Assembly (NCBI RefSeq): GCF_003148475.1
Contig: NZ_QGGG01000005.1
Span: 124,001 to 188,000 of the forward strand
Direction: 5' to 3'
Length of the DNA: 64,000 nucleotides
Origin: Pseudaminobacter salicylatoxidans
Lineage (GTDB): Bacteria > Pseudomonadota > Alphaproteobacteria > Rhizobiales > Rhizobiaceae
The position numbers and the translations under genes are program-made. Each line of letters opens with the position of its first letter. Position 1 is the first letter of the stretch. Below, piece after piece: positions 31,083-34,714 of the stretch. Below the pieces are notes generated by a model that saw only the letters and a list, made by a program, of their open reading frames with translations, searched no databases and was not told where the DNA came from.

Positions 31083-31661
31083 TCAGCGCGCAAGCGCGCC
31101 GGAGGCCCTGGCGACATGCGTTGCAATCGCATCCATCAGCGCGGGCGAAAGGCAGTCATAGGGAGTGAGGCCGAGTTCCGTCAGACGCGCGCGGATCGCT
31201 CCCATGTTTTCCGGCTCGACGCCGGATTCGATGACGGACGACACGAAGGCGCTGAATTCCGGTTCTGCCCAGCCCGCTTCCGCCGAAAGCTCGGGATGGA
31301 TGAAGTCCAGCCCGTAGAAGGGATGCGAGCTGTTCTCGATGCGACCGTACATATGCACGCCGCACGCCTTGCAGGCATGCCGCTGGATCGTTGCGCCGGC
31401 ATCGACGACGGCCAGCTTGTCGCCGTTTTCCCTGACCTCGACCTTCTCGCGCGGCACGACGGCCACCATCGAAAATGTCGCGCCATCGGGCTTCCAGCAC
31501 TTCGTGCAGCCGCAGGCATGGTTGTGGGCGACCTGGCTGGAGACGGCGACCCTGACCGGAGCCTCCTCGCATTTGCAGGTCAGGGTTCCTCCCACGAAGT
31601 CCGGCGCGCCCGGTTTTACGCCGTGGTCCACCGAAGGATGAATTTGGATCGTCTTCGACAT
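31083..31661 (-). CDS. gfa: S-(hydroxymethyl)glutathione synthase
   Basis: The 192-residue protein matches Gfa, which promotes condensation of formaldehyde with glutathione. Zinc-site cysteines are visible at about residues 29 and 31 (CKC), 50, 52 and 55 (CGCTKC), and 97 and 100 (CKAC). The ATG at 31661 follows a GGGAG ribosome-binding site; a longer in-frame reading adds a non-homologous Arg-rich leader. Placement after frmA strongly implies that formaldehyde is a product of the pathway here. Confidence 0.92.
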
Positions 31662-31830
31662 TGCTCGCTCCCTATGAAATTTCGCGCCCCGTTGTGCTCG
31701 CCGGAACGCCATGGCGGCCTCCCGCCGCCGGACTGTTTGTCGCCGCCGAAGCACCGGCGATATGCAAAAGACCAATAACGGTCCGCATGCGTCGATTGCA
31801 GAGGGGCTCGCTGAGGCCGATCCGTCCGGG

Positions 31831-32943
31831 TCAGAACGTGACCACGGAGCGGATCGACTTACCGTCGTGCATCAGATCGAATGCGGTATTGATTTCATCA
31901 AGAGGCATGGTGTGGGTGATCAGGTCATCGATATTGATCTTGCCCTCCATATACCAGTCGACGATCCTGGGAACGTCAGTCCGCCCTCTGGCACCACCGA
32001 ACGCGGTCCCCTTCCAGGTGCGCCCCGTCACGAGCTGGAACGGACGCGTGGAAATCTCGGCCCCTGCGGGCGCGACCCCGATGACGACACTGGTGCCCCA
32101 GCCTCTATGGCACGCTTCCAGCGCCTGTCGCATCACGCCGACATTGCCGGTGCAGTCGAACGTGAAGTCGGCCCCGCCGTCGGTAAGGTCCTGAATGGCT
32201 GCAACCACCTTGTCGTTGCCGACATCCTTGGGATTGACGAAATCGGTCATGCCGAACTTCGCGGCCATGGCGGCCTTGTCAGGGTTGATGTCCACGCCGA
32301 TGATCTTGTCGGCACCGACCATGCGGGCGCCCTGGATGACATTCAGCCCAATGCCGCCGAGACCGAATACCACCACATTCGCGCCGGGCCATACCTTGCC
32401 CGTATAGAGCACCGCGCCGATGCCCGTGGTGACGCCGCAGCCGATGTAGCAGATCTTGTCGAAGGGCGCGTCCTGGCGAACCCTCGCCAGCGCGATTTCC
32501 GGCAACACGGTGAAGTTCGAGAACGTCGAACAGCCCATATAGTGGAAGATGTCCTCGCCCTCGCAGAAGAACCTGCTGGTTCCATCCGGCATCAACCCCT
32601 GCCCTTGCGTGGCACGGATGGAGGTACACAAATTGGAGCGTTGCGAAAGGCAGGTTTTGCATTCGCGGCACTCGGGCGTGTAGAGGGGGATAACGTGGTC
32701 GCCGGGCTTCAGGCCGCTGACGCCGGGGCCGACTTCGCGAACGATGCCCGCACCTTCATGCCCGAGAATGGCCGGGAAGCGGCCTTCCGAATCCAGGCCG
32801 GAAAGCGTGTAGGCATCAGTATGGCAAACCCCCGTGGCCATGATCTCCACCAGCACCTCGCCTGCTTTCGGCCCCCTGACGTCAATGGTCTCTATGGTGA
32901 GCGGCGCGCCCGCCTTCCAGGCTATCGCTGCGCGTGACTTCAT
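31831..32943 (-). CDS. frmA: S-(hydroxymethyl)glutathione dehydrogenase / class III alcohol dehydrogenase
   Basis: The 370-residue protein oxidises S-(hydroxymethyl)glutathione to S-formylglutathione with NAD. Catalytic zinc ligands are Cys 40 ([12 protein letters not shown]), His 62 (GHEGAG) and the [11 protein letters not shown]ys. Structural zinc is held by Cys 92, 95, 98 and 106. The NAD motif is [11 protein letters not shown]. The class III fingerprint is clear. Its gene begins ten bases after the reductase gene, so it is co-transcribed with it. No S-formylglutathione hydrolase gene is in the window. Confidence 0.94.
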
Positions 32944-32953
32944 GAATTGGTCC

Positions 32954-33940
32954 TCAAAGATCGAGTACGAGAAGTTCGGATTCGGAACGCGATACGCAGA
33001 CGAGCATCACCGCGCCCGACTCCCGGTCGGCATCGCTGAGCACGTCGTCATTGTGTTGCGGGGTTCCGGCCAGAACCTTGACGAGGCAGGTTCCGCAGAT
33101 GCCGGCCCTGCAGGAATTCGTGATCTTGTGGCCTGCATTCTCGAGTACCGAAAGCAGGCTGGTGTGGGGCGGCACCGTCAAACGTTGCCCGGAGCGTGCC
33201 AGTTCCACCTCGAAAGCGCCCGTCTCGAGCCGCGGTTTGACGCTCGGCGCAAAGCGCTCGCGATGCAGTGCGCCCGCGCGCCAGGCCCGGCAATTTTCTT
33301 CAACCGCATCGATCAACGGGCCTGGGCCGCAGCAATAGACGGCCGTGTCGGTGCGCGGCGCGCCCAGGAAGCGCGGCAGGTCCAGGAGGCCGAACTCGTC
33401 CTGCGGCATGACATGGACCTCGCCGCCGCGACAGGTGGAGATCTCGTCCAGGAAAGCCATCGAATTGCGGGTGCGGCCGCCATAGAGCAGCGTCCATGGC
33501 TTGCCCCCATCCGCCGCCTGACGGATCATCGGCAGGATCGGCGTGATGCCGATGCCACCGGCAATGAACAGGTAGCGCTCGGCATCGACCAGGGCGAAAT
33601 TGTTTCGGGGCGTCGTGACCTGAAGCCGGTCGCCAACGCGAACATCCTCATGGATGCAACTCGAACCGCCACGGCTGGCAGGCTCGCGCAGCACCCCGAT
33701 GCGCCAGGCCTCCGGATTTTGCGGATCACCACACAGCGAGTACTGCCGCACCAGAGCATTTGGCAGGATGACGTCGATATGAGCGCCGGGGGTCCAACCC
33801 GGCAGGGACTGTCCGTATGAGGACTTCAGTTCCAGCGAAACCACGCCGTCGGCCTCGGTCTTGACCGCGGCCACATCCACATTGAAGACCGCACCGGCCT
33901 CCATCAGATCCATGGAGTCCCTCATTGTTATGTCGTTCAT
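32954..33940 (-). CDS. VanB/PDR-type oxidoreductase with C-terminal [2Fe-2S] domain
   Basis: The 328-residue protein has a ferredoxin-reductase flavin domain ([11 protein letters not shown]), an NAD domain ([16 protein letters not shown]) and a plant-type 2Fe-2S domain (CRAGICGTC, Cys about 277, 282, 285, and Cys about 315 in MLVCVS). Such proteins feed electrons to Rieske oxygenases including vanillate and carnitine demethylases. No Rieske component is encoded nearby; the adjacent upstream gene encodes a ferritin-like diiron protein, the likely partner. A GGGAGG-type ribosome-binding site precedes the ATG. Confidence 0.92.
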
Positions 33941-34021
33941 TGAACCAAACCTCCCGAATGGACGACCTCAACGGCGGCATTGTCCGGGTATCTGCCGGGC
34001 GCCGCATGGGGTGCGGCCGCG

Positions 34022-34714
34022 TCAGGCACGGCGGCGCTGGGCGACGGATTCAGGGGTGAAGGTCTTCCAGGCAATGTCACGCATGCCCCTCATCGCCCGC
34101 AGTATCTCCTCGCGATCGTGATCTGTCCTGGCATAGCTGGACAGGATCTGCCGCCCGAGGCCGACATGGAATTTTTCGTCGATCTCGATCTGCCGATAGA
34201 CGCGCACGACCTCGTCGAACTGATGCCGCTCGCCGGCGCGGAAGGTTGGCTCGAAGCTGCCCGACGCCGAAGTTTCCGACACGTTCCACGCAGCGATCGC
34301 CGCCAGCGGATGGCGCTCGAGACAGTCCCACAGGAACTCGCTCCATGGACGGGCTTCCTCCGGCACCGAGACCGGAACGGTGCCGCCGAGCGATTCAATC
34401 GCCTTGCCAACCGCCTCATAGTGCTCAGCCTCCTGGAACGACTGCTTTGCCAGCAGCGTGATATGGGTGCGCGAAAAGCCCATCCCGTAGCGCCGGATCT
34501 GTTCGTTCAGCAGGAAAACATAATCGATTTCCCGCCACGCACGCGGCTCAAGCCAGGCTGCCAGGACCCTGGGGTCGGGGTTCTTATCGTAGGTTTCGAA
34601 AAACGCTTCGGTCGCCTGTCTGGTGGATTCGACGACGGAATCCAGAATCTCATCGACCTCGTCGCTGATCCCGACCAGCCCATCGCCGCCACGTACGTTC
34701 CTGACATCCACCAT
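34022..34714 (-). CDS. Ferritin-like diiron protein, candidate oxygenase
   Basis: The 230-residue protein starts at an ATG preceded by GGAGG. It carries two repeats of the ferritin-like diiron pattern: Glu 62 then E95-A-E-H98, and Glu 147 then E180-K-F-H183. The Glu-to-ExxH spacing is 33 residues in both halves. That supports a four-helix carboxylate-bridged diiron site like those of diiron oxygenases. It heads the operon with the VanB-type reductase, frmA and gfa, so an oxygenase releasing formaldehyde is a reasonable inference. I do not recognise a named family. Confidence 0.78.
   Translation of the reverse strand: MVDVRNVRGGDGLVGISDEVDEILDSVVESTRQATEAFFETYDKNPDPRVLAAWLEPRAWREIDYVFLLNEQIRRYGMGFSRTHITLLAKQSFQEAEHYEAVGKAIESLGGTVPVSVPEEARPWSEFLWDCLERHPLAAIAAWNVSETSASGSFEPTFRAGERHQFDEVVRVYRQIEIDEKFHVGLGRQILSSYARTDHDREEILRAMRGMRDIAWKTFTPESVAQRRRA

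Follow-up and report, generated by a model that had tools for sequence, protein, structure and literature searches.

A predicted diiron oxygenase and its reductase partner, often beside formaldehyde-removing genes: a candidate demethylation system in Alphaproteobacteria and Actinobacteria

The Rieske demethylases VanAB, GbcAB and NdmABCDE have the reductase type, the net reaction and the formaldehyde disposal that we propose below for a locus of Pseudaminobacter salicylatoxidans, and methyl removal is usually the job of an enzyme class different from the one considered here. The heme-oxygenase-like proteins (HDOs) covered in the accessible part of a review serve biosynthesis, mostly acting on amino and fatty acids, and no demethylase or catabolic HDO is described there; it does describe HDO variants with a 3-His/4-carboxylate set or a mononuclear site, and O2-activating dimetal enzymes in both the heme-oxygenase-like and the ferritin-like classes (PMC13108848). 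The mangotoxin HDO MboA and its dedicated FAD/2Fe-2S reductase MboB, a biosynthetic system from 2026, offer a precedent for such an oxygenase-reductase pair; the MboA ligands given in the available text are E86, H89, E143, H172, D176 and H181, a 3-His/3-carboxylate set (PMC13185094). A demethylase made of such a diiron oxygenase and a reductase was not described in the literature searched.

The window (the whole stretch of 64,000 nucleotides of P. salicylatoxidans DNA that was analysed) encodes at 31083-34714 a 230-aa protein, a VanB/PDR-type reductase, FrmA and Gfa, all on the (-) strand and in one direction (Table 1). According to the coordinates, 81 bases separate the oxygenase gene from the reductase gene, 10 the reductase gene from frmA, 169 frmA from gfa and 107 gfa from the MFS gene. 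The ATG of the 230-aa protein has GGAGG six bases upstream. An open reading frame listed from 31775 is the Gfa frame read longer. The original prediction had claimed this four-gene set and two Glu/ExxH repeats in the first protein, and both were borne out by translation, profile scores and the invariance of the ligand candidates.

Table 1. Features of the locus and its surroundings in the window
Feature	Coordinates	Strand	Basis
Predicted diiron oxygenase, 230 aa	34022..34714	(-)	translation, alignment, predicted fold
Reductase, PDR/VanB layout (FAD, NAD, C-terminal 2Fe-2S)	32954..33940	(-)	domain matches, pairing with oxygenase
FrmA, S-(hydroxymethyl)glutathione dehydrogenase	31831..32943	(-)	TIGR02818 614.8 bits, cut-off 543.95
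Gfa, S-(hydroxymethyl)glutathione synthase	31083..31661	(-)	TIGR02820 330.6, cut-off 234.55
MFS metabolite:H+ symporter, 2A0106 type, like ProP/shikimate transporters	29635..30975	(-)	439.3 bits, just under cut-off 443.45
LysR regulator, divergent, GcvA-like	34869..35801	(+)	below GcvA-family cut-off
FMN-dependent alpha-hydroxy-acid dehydrogenase-like protein	35861..37048	(-)	with the proline-racemase-like gene in 5/24 loci
Proline-racemase-like protein, Cys/Gly at two catalytic positions	37201..38220	(-)	in the window, L012 and 5/24 loci
Diaminopropionate ammonia-lyase, accessory cassette	6388..7581	(+)	NF006058 512.7 vs cut-off 276 (over); TIGR03528 324.4 vs 532.25 (under)
CoxG-like protein, M20 ArgE/DapE-type deacylase, TRAP transporter DctM/Q/P; accessory cassette	8887..13795	(-)	CoxG, DctM, DctQ named by eye
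Molybdenum hydroxylase, three subunits (FAD, 2Fe-2S, Mo); accessory cassette	14034..17732	(+)	Mo subunit under xanthine dehydrogenase cut-offs
GntR, TPP enzyme, SDR, aldehyde dehydrogenase; accessory cassette	18013..23181	(.)	GntR by eye

The 230-aa protein has the E / ExxH / E / ExxH motif of ferritin-like diiron oxygenases, with candidate ligands E62, E95-A-E-H98, E147 and E180-K-F-H183, a spacing of 33 from E to ExxH in both repeats, and D179, beside E180, as a further candidate. An alignment of the window protein with 23 relatives, down to 47% identity and leaving out the partial relatives L012 and L028, contains 66 invariant columns, among them E62, E95, H98, E147, E180 and H183. The profile search proposed along with the original prediction was run and matched no Pfam or NCBIfam model; annotation based on those models would therefore overlook the family. 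Neither the single sequence nor its alignment, searched against the PDB, yielded more than chance matches, and no relatives were found on plasmids.

The second gene encodes a PDR/VanB-type reductase as in VanAB-type systems, with NAD_binding_1 and Fer2 domains and with residues 21-328 aligning to phthalate dioxygenase reductase (2pia, 5e-54). A reductase gene lies 0.5-1.4 kb downstream of the oxygenase gene in 23 of the 24 other loci, from Alphaproteobacteria and Actinobacteria, the remaining locus being interrupted by a contig end, so that the anticipated linkage in other genomes held. The conservation goes beyond chance: all six ligand candidates are invariant, and 23/24 other loci retain the reductase gene as a neighbour. 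Its sequence and models suggest that the 230-aa protein may represent a new family of non-heme diiron oxygenases, a proposal that we grade jointly with the functional reading given below.

Its fold class, which the original prediction gave as ferritin-like, is less clear-cut. Two AlphaFold models (pLDDT 92.6 and 88.1) both resemble the heme-oxygenase-like multi-helix fold most, and Foldseek places heme-oxygenase-like PDB entries first, with TMq up to 0.71 for the first model and 0.69 for the second at prob 1.00, although the best E-values are no lower than 2.3e-3 and 3.0e-3. The 28 top matches of the first model are of the TenA/UndA/CADD/AetD/PolF/PqqC type, with Dps at a TMq of only 0.32. The list of the second model has UndA at TMq 0.69 and, after the best heme-oxygenase-like entries, ferritin-like ones; it also holds ADO at TMq 0.43-0.56, 3hiu at rank 4 and 2gyq at rank 11. 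We take 2gyq and DUF455 to be ferritin-like. Proteins of PF14518, relatives that match CADD, are hit by the family profile (9e-6 to 2e-4; 97 columns aligned, hhalign 94.5%). The strongest distant match is L030 (E 2.5e-8; hhalign 96.9%, 2e-10, 137 columns), which is not a PF14518 protein, keeps the E/ExxH/E/ExxH pattern and scores weakly, below cut-offs, against rubrerythrin (E 0.008) and DUF455 (E 0.006); the DUF455 protein L038 (277 bits) aligns over 131 columns (77%), and when 385 genomes were screened for further relatives of L030, one emerged, L093. No ferritin-clan Pfam profile matches the window protein, and in the alignment it lacks the canonical 3-His/3-carboxylate set of HDOs: the first His of the third HDO ligand helix has no counterpart (I176/E177 stand there, 177 being variable), and the invariant E62 is extra.

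It is quite possible, if somewhat short of probable, that the protein is truly a ferritin-like diiron oxygenase whose heme-oxygenase-like resemblance is superficial. The spacing of its motif, L030, L038 and the matches of the second model to ADO, 3hiu and 2gyq favour this assignment, whereas the 28 top matches of the first model, the UndA match of the second, the link to PF14518 and the lack of a ferritin-clan match oppose it. We predict a class lying between HDO and ferritin-like; the ferritin-like alternative concerns class, not function, and is compatible with our main reading. The label of the original prediction thus agrees with the motif and the remote relatives but is contested by the predicted folds, in which ferritin-like matches are the weaker ones.

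Linkage of the pair to formaldehyde genes, also part of the original prediction, is present but looser than that of the reductase. FrmA over cut-off lies within about 6 kb of the pair in 7 of the 12 genomes having one (6/11 without the window's genome) and is not near it in the other 5; 0.046 would be expected assuming random placement and independent genomes, with three copies counted for G837, a genome in which FrmA occurs in six contig-end pieces. No FrmA over cut-off was found in 13/25 genomes, and the window's genome has two copies, the other at G000:C2:88510. In the FrmA tree the linked copies fall into different regions, and well-supported branches force at least three changes between linked and unlinked labels; shuffled labels clustered as well as the linked copies do in 40/500 trials. 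The linked FrmA of L008 lies at a contig end whose sequence recurs at other contig ends. The gene order in L024 is LysR / oxygenase-reductase-FrmA-MFS, and in L016 and L017 the S-formylglutathione hydrolase FghA adjoins FrmA, which may be a housekeeping pair beside which the oxygenase genes landed. Gfa, not found in 18/25 genomes, is linked to the pair in 3 of the 7 that have it, counting the window's genome, where it is the single match at E 1e-20; it stands in the operon in the window and L007, and in a divergent gene group in L005. Among Actinobacteria, 10 of 11 genomes gave no FrmA-search match (E 1e-60) near the pair. The eleventh, L013, has a mycothiol-type MscR directly after the reductase (TIGR03451 655.9 bits, cut-off 512.9); this gene precedes an NdmC/NdmD-like Rieske demethylase, which could itself be the formaldehyde source.

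Because the pair is conserved in distant bacteria, often by formaldehyde-removing enzymes, it probably strips carbon, most likely a methyl group, from an imported molecule. From what was directly established, namely the genes, their conservation and linkage and the predicted fold, we infer that electrons from NADH would pass through the adjacent FAD/2Fe-2S reductase to a diiron site in the oxygenase, which with O2 would oxidise a small imported molecule and release formaldehyde. In the simplest form, in which the methyl group is our guess, hydroxylation of an N- or O-methyl carbon would be followed by a collapse that yields HCHO plus the demethylated compound; Gfa and FrmA (FrmA and FghA in two loci) would carry the formaldehyde towards formate, and the product would enter central metabolism directly or via local cassettes. 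Import would fall to transporters of differing families, the substrate being, again as a guess, a carboxylate, amino acid or N-heterocycle. A homolog of the MFS transporter lies within 25 kb of the oxygenase in 11/24 loci (at least 74% identity in 7 of these), and LivK and TctC, of amino-acid and carboxylate type, are nearby in 4/24 loci each; a LysR homolog is near in 13/24. We give an even chance to this reading as a whole, a new diiron oxygenase family acting with its own reductase on small imported compounds and releasing formaldehyde, most simply by demethylation.

Fragmentation at a C-C (or C-N) bond, known from the action of the HDO BesC on 4-Cl-lysine, might instead be how the same oxygenase frees formaldehyde; we regard this as unlikely. 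Release of formaldehyde by BesC and the preference of known HDOs for amino or fatty acids fit this idea, as do the LivK and TctC genes, but BesC is without a dedicated reductase in the description available (PMC13108848). Furthermore, lysine-type or olefin-processing genes were not recognised near the pair, partly by eye.

FrmA and MscR also reduce S-nitrosothiols, and a second, non-formaldehyde reading is therefore possible, in which the pair is an N-oxygenase or an amine/hydroxylamine oxidase making reactive nitrogen species. Several HDOs are N-oxygenases according to the accessible part of PMC13108848, and the diiron protein DnfA, encoded with the FAD/2Fe-2S reductase DnfB, oxidises hydroxylamine (PMC9478400, in part). 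We nevertheless find this distinctly improbable, given the placement of Gfa, a member of a formaldehyde-defined family, in the window, L007 and L005, the hydrolase adjoining FrmA in L016/L017, and the differing DnfA ligands.

There is very little likelihood that the true partner of the reductase is a Rieske oxygenase encoded elsewhere and that the 230-aa protein does something unrelated, such as iron handling or sensing: Rieske-domain proteins do occur among the matches listed in all 25 genomes searched, and in L013 a Rieske system lies 3-4 kb from the pair, but the oxygenase-reductase pairing spans two phyla, the window has no Rieske motif match, and of nine matches in the fetched flanks of the 24 loci eight were judged chance by eye, leaving L013 as the only convincing case. 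The expected lack of a Rieske partner was thus upheld in the flanks of 23/24 loci. The wider original proposal, that the diiron protein replaces the Rieske oxygenase in a formaldehyde-releasing demethylation, draws on this near-absence and on both linkages, while its ferritin-like element is disputed by the predicted folds.

Several narrower assignments were considered. Hydroxyproline or proline-betaine catabolism, considered because a proline-racemase-like gene adjoins, was rejected: that protein has a Cys/Gly pair, as against the Cys-Cys, Ser-Thr and Ser-Cys pairs given in the part of the source available (eLife 2014), and its gene is limited to the window, L012 and 5/24 loci, where it occurs together with the alpha-hydroxy-acid dehydrogenase-like gene. 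Uric-acid or methylxanthine catabolism came into question because Mo-hydroxylase, M20 and diaminopropionate-lyase genes are present (compare PMC12507026, in part), and stays an idea because the scores lie far under the cut-off for YgeY (M20 protein) and under those for xanthine dehydrogenase (Mo subunit). A diaminopropionate ammonia-lyase homolog (at least 45%) is near the oxygenase in 3/24 loci; for BMAA demethylation, which the lyase suggests, nothing was found in the literature searched. Nothing on the 230-aa protein was recognised in the homarine literature among the matches listed.

If our main reading is true, the locus would encode a small two-component demethylase of a reductase-fed helical diiron type, outside the Rieske and P450 classes and in a catabolic setting, and would test the kinship of heme-oxygenase-like and ferritin-like dimetal enzymes. 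A bolder, speculative and on the whole doubtful version is that the family bridges the two classes, joining an HDO-type fold to a ferritin-type 4-carboxylate/2-His site, and, working with its own reductase, supports growth by demethylating small nitrogen compounds, as a non-Rieske, non-P450 module passed between Alphaproteobacteria (N-methyl amino acids or heterocycles) and Actinobacteria (purine-type N-methyl compounds).

Among known systems, UndA, CADD, BesC and AetD supply the top structural matches and a remote sequence link via the PF14518 relatives, whereas no direct sequence match to the 230-aa protein was found. DUF455, rubrerythrin and ADO proteins share its ligand pattern and are linked remotely via L030 and L038, but their structural matches rank below those of the HDOs. 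DnfA and DnfB were considered because they too pair a diiron protein with this type of reductase, co-encoded and using NADH; in the part of the report available, however, DnfA is AurF/CmlI-like, with 3 His/4 carboxylates, and converts hydroxylamine to N2 (PMC9478400), and identity with it was rejected since this ligand set differs. MboA and MboB resemble the pair in that a small helical protein, one of whose ligand helices carries ExxH, comes with its own NADH/FAD/2Fe-2S reductase, the pairing here being known from the genes; as far as the accessible text goes, MboA is a biosynthetic desaturase/acetylenase, and one of its His has no counterpart in our protein, which has an extra invariant Glu (PMC13185094). 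The genes described here sit instead with transporters, regulators and formaldehyde genes. Finally, compared with VanAB, GbcAB and NdmABCDE, a single 230-aa helical protein would take the place of the Rieske oxygenase.

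In a genome of 4.84 Mb, the gene for the 230-aa protein, a predicted diiron oxygenase, opens the minus-strand series in the table below. The residues listed in the original prediction were confirmed in its translation, and the protein matched zero Pfam families at E 0.1, zero NCBIfam families at E 0.01 and, by sequence, nothing above chance among solved structures. A scan across 84,980 species genomes, in which distant relatives are under-counted because its peptide patterns came from the window protein alone, yielded 25 loci with relatives (best-segment identity 52-93%) in Rhizobiales, Rhodobacterales, Pseudonocardiales, mycobacteria and one Solirubrobacterales MAG. 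The 23 relatives aligned (partial L012 and L028 were omitted) are 47-92% identical to the window protein. Relatives are rare: of 101 genomes close to the window's, two have one, and of 397 genomes in the order, three carry a full-length copy (own genome counted in both; a fourth match was weak); a plasmid search found none. High identity across phyla combined with this patchy spread suggests horizontal transfer.

Features and their coordinates
Feature	Sequence	Position	Strand	Content
Oxygenase	Window	34022-34714	-	230-aa protein, first of the series 34714 to 29635
Reductase	Window	32954-33940	-	second of the series
FrmA	Window	31831-32943	-	third of the series
Gfa	Window	31083-31661	-	fourth of the series
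MFS transporter	Window	29635-30975	-	last of the series
LysR	Window	34869-35801	+	divergent from the oxygenase series
Second cassette	Window	6388-23181		diaminopropionate ammonia-lyase, CoxG-like, M20 deacylase, TRAP transporter, three-subunit molybdenum hydroxylase, GntR, TPP enzyme, SDR, aldehyde dehydrogenase
GhrA-like	Window	26499-27494
EutA/arylmalonate-decarboxylase-like	Window	27509-28297
Proline-racemase-like	Window	37201-38220
Aromatic catabolism genes (by eye)	Window	41651-50063		HpaB-like, muconate-cycloisomerase-like, intradiol-dioxygenase-like, two LysR
Distant relative	L030	1423-2058	-	212 aa, unclassified; ExxH, E, DEKFHMGLG; similar to L093
Cluster directly beside the oxygenase-reductase pair	L013	9755-16636		includes NdmC-like protein without Rieske domain and NdmD-like Rieske-reductase fusion

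Co-occurrence with the reductase extended to other genomes: in 23 of the 24 loci examined the oxygenase gene is followed by one for a reductase of the phthalate dioxygenase reductase type, and in the 24th (L027/L052) the contig stops ~260 bases past the oxygenase gene; the two genes are also paired in L012 and in the window. All 28 reductase sequences compared carry the 2Fe-2S cysteine motif, a set that includes three second copies of the same gene and the NdmD-like protein of L013, L005 being absent.

The window protein and L027, the most divergent aligned relative, were modeled with AlphaFold (pLDDT 92.6 and 88.1), and for both models the top structural matches were heme-oxygenase-like proteins (TenA homologs, UndA, CADD-like, AetD and PqqC); the highest TMq values were 0.71 and 0.69 and the best E-values a modest 2.3e-3 and 3.0e-3, respectively. 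For the L027 model, ADO (entry 2oc5, titled ferritin-like) came after the heme-oxygenase-like matches at TMq 0.43-0.56, and entries 3hiu and 2gyq ranked 4 and 11; Dps reached a TMq of 0.32 in the window-model list. In sequence searches, the family profile picked up proteins of two sorts. The first is PF14518 'Haem_oxygenas_2', whose members so reached match CADD and whose alignment (94.5%, 97 columns) places E147 at the second-helix Glu and H183 at the last His. The second comprises L038, a DUF455 protein, and L030, the best distant match (E 2.5e-8; profile alignment 96.9%, 2e-10, 137 columns), which retains ExxH, E and DEKFHxGLG, scores weakly with rubrerythrin and DUF455 and, with L093, may link the oxygenase family to ferritin-like proteins. 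A metallo-beta-lactamase-like ORF, read by eye, adjoins the L030 gene. Compared with the three His and three carboxylates given as canonical for heme-oxygenase-like diiron proteins (HDO) in the available part of a review (PMC13108848), the 230-aa protein lacks a counterpart of one His but has an extra invariant Glu, E62, ahead of the ExxH helix; judged from sequence, its ligands are likely four carboxylates and two His, as in the ferritin type, with D179 and E180 both candidates for one position. The evidence on fold class is split: the motif, L030 and L038 favor the ferritin-like class originally predicted, whereas both predicted structures favor HDO, leaving the ferritin-like assignment possible but somewhat doubtful. 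That a new diiron family bridges the two classes and demethylates small nitrogen compounds with a dedicated reductase is a tentative, rather unlikely proposal.

The predicted association with formaldehyde genes held in part of the family. FrmA scored above the curated cut-off in 12 of 25 genomes and lay within ~6 kb of the oxygenase gene in seven of the 12 (window, L005, L007, L008, L016, L017 and L024; 0.046 expected under random placement), or in 6 of 11 without the window, which had prompted the test; the L008 linkage is not clean, as this contig end is repeated at other contig ends. The order oxygenase-reductase-FrmA on a single strand is found in the window, L007 and L024, while FrmA sits inside a divergent LysR-MFS-FrmA group in L005 and L008, and past a LysR gene, adjoining FghA, in L016/L017. 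The FrmA tree unites the window, L007 and L024 copies, with the other FrmA of the L024 genome as their neighbor, and places the remaining linked copies elsewhere, mixed with unlinked ones. Its well-supported branches require no fewer than three linked/unlinked label changes, and 40 of 500 label shuffles were as clustered as observed. Gfa is linked in three of the seven genomes having it. Counting against a formaldehyde linkage, 10 of 11 actinobacterial genomes gave zero FrmA-search matches near the pair. The remaining one, Saccharopolyspora (L013), has a gene for a mycothiol-dependent formaldehyde dehydrogenase (MscR; TIGR03451, well above cut-off) right after the pair. Beyond the MscR gene come a set of Rieske-type demethylase genes (for a protein with VanA_C alone, a Rieske-reductase fusion and a 208-aa protein, GST-like by reading, with no Pfam match) and a gene that fuses a xanthine permease with an OHCU-decarboxylase-like domain (84.9 bits, below the cut-off of 96.25), so MscR may serve that adjoining system.

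The transporter near the pair varies: 11 of 24 loci have an MFS homolog no more than 25 kb away (seven being close relatives of the window MFS), four have TctC, four LivK and five NCS1, and L010 has, by eye, a TRAP set. Proline-racemase-like and FMN-dehydrogenase genes accompany the pair in 5 of 24 loci, plus L012 and the window. Most of the second cassette recurs near the pair in 3 of 24 loci (Paracoccus sulfuroxidans, Pseudaminobacter soli, in which CoxG was unmatched, and Pararhodobacter oceanensis, in which TRAP was unmatched), and NCS1, PucR and molybdenum-hydroxylase genes adjoin the pair in five mycobacterial loci. These surroundings suggest that the substrates are small compounds containing nitrogen, heterocycles among them, and single out no particular one. 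Few recognized product-processing genes occur in L024 and L008 beyond the pair, transporter, regulator and FrmA, so the product in such loci is probably an ordinary metabolite. Pseudaminobacter arsenicus has two oxygenase-reductase loci on one contig (L006 and L018; oxygenase identity to the window protein 84% and 70%), whose different transporters, TctC/MFS versus LivK, suggest two substrates. The proline-racemase-like proteins (7/7: window, L005, L006, L007, L010, L011 and L012) combine a Cys in the first catalytic position with a Gly in the second, unlike the Cys-Cys, Ser-Thr and Ser-Cys pairs named in the accessible part of the family study (eLife 2014), and would probably use one-base chemistry. 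The EutA/arylmalonate-decarboxylase-like and GhrA-like genes are flanked, by eye, by two amino-acid-type solute-binding proteins.

We consider it an even prospect that the 230-aa protein is a diiron oxygenase fed by the adjacent reductase, oxidizing a small imported substrate with release of formaldehyde. NADH would reduce the reductase, whose 2Fe-2S center would pass electrons to the putative diiron site of the 230-aa protein, where O2 would be activated and a C-H bond hydroxylated, most simply that of an N- or O-methyl group; the formaldehyde released would then be taken up by Gfa/FrmA, each step past gene content being one that we infer. Release of formaldehyde by fragmentation, as with BesC, is an improbable route for the same oxygenase, and an N-oxygenation system with FrmA as nitrosothiol reductase is less probable still. 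Among the matches listed, Rieske proteins occur somewhere in each of the 25 genomes, but a 230-aa protein with an unrelated role and a reductase serving a Rieske oxygenase elsewhere are highly improbable given the consistent pairing and the single convincing Rieske case, L013, that a motif search turned up in the flanks retrieved for 24 loci and for the window.

No HDO demethylase or catabolic HDO was found in the searchable literature, many subscription papers lying outside its reach, and 'demethyl' is absent from the 2026 HDO review (PMC13108848). What sets this reductase-paired dimetal-oxygenase-like protein apart is that its fold and its motif are an uncommon match, together with the formaldehyde-linked setting; the reductase pairing itself has precedent, resembling that of MboA and MboB, which their authors, in the accessible part of the report, describe as perhaps the first dedicated HDO-redox partner pair to be characterized (PMC13185094).
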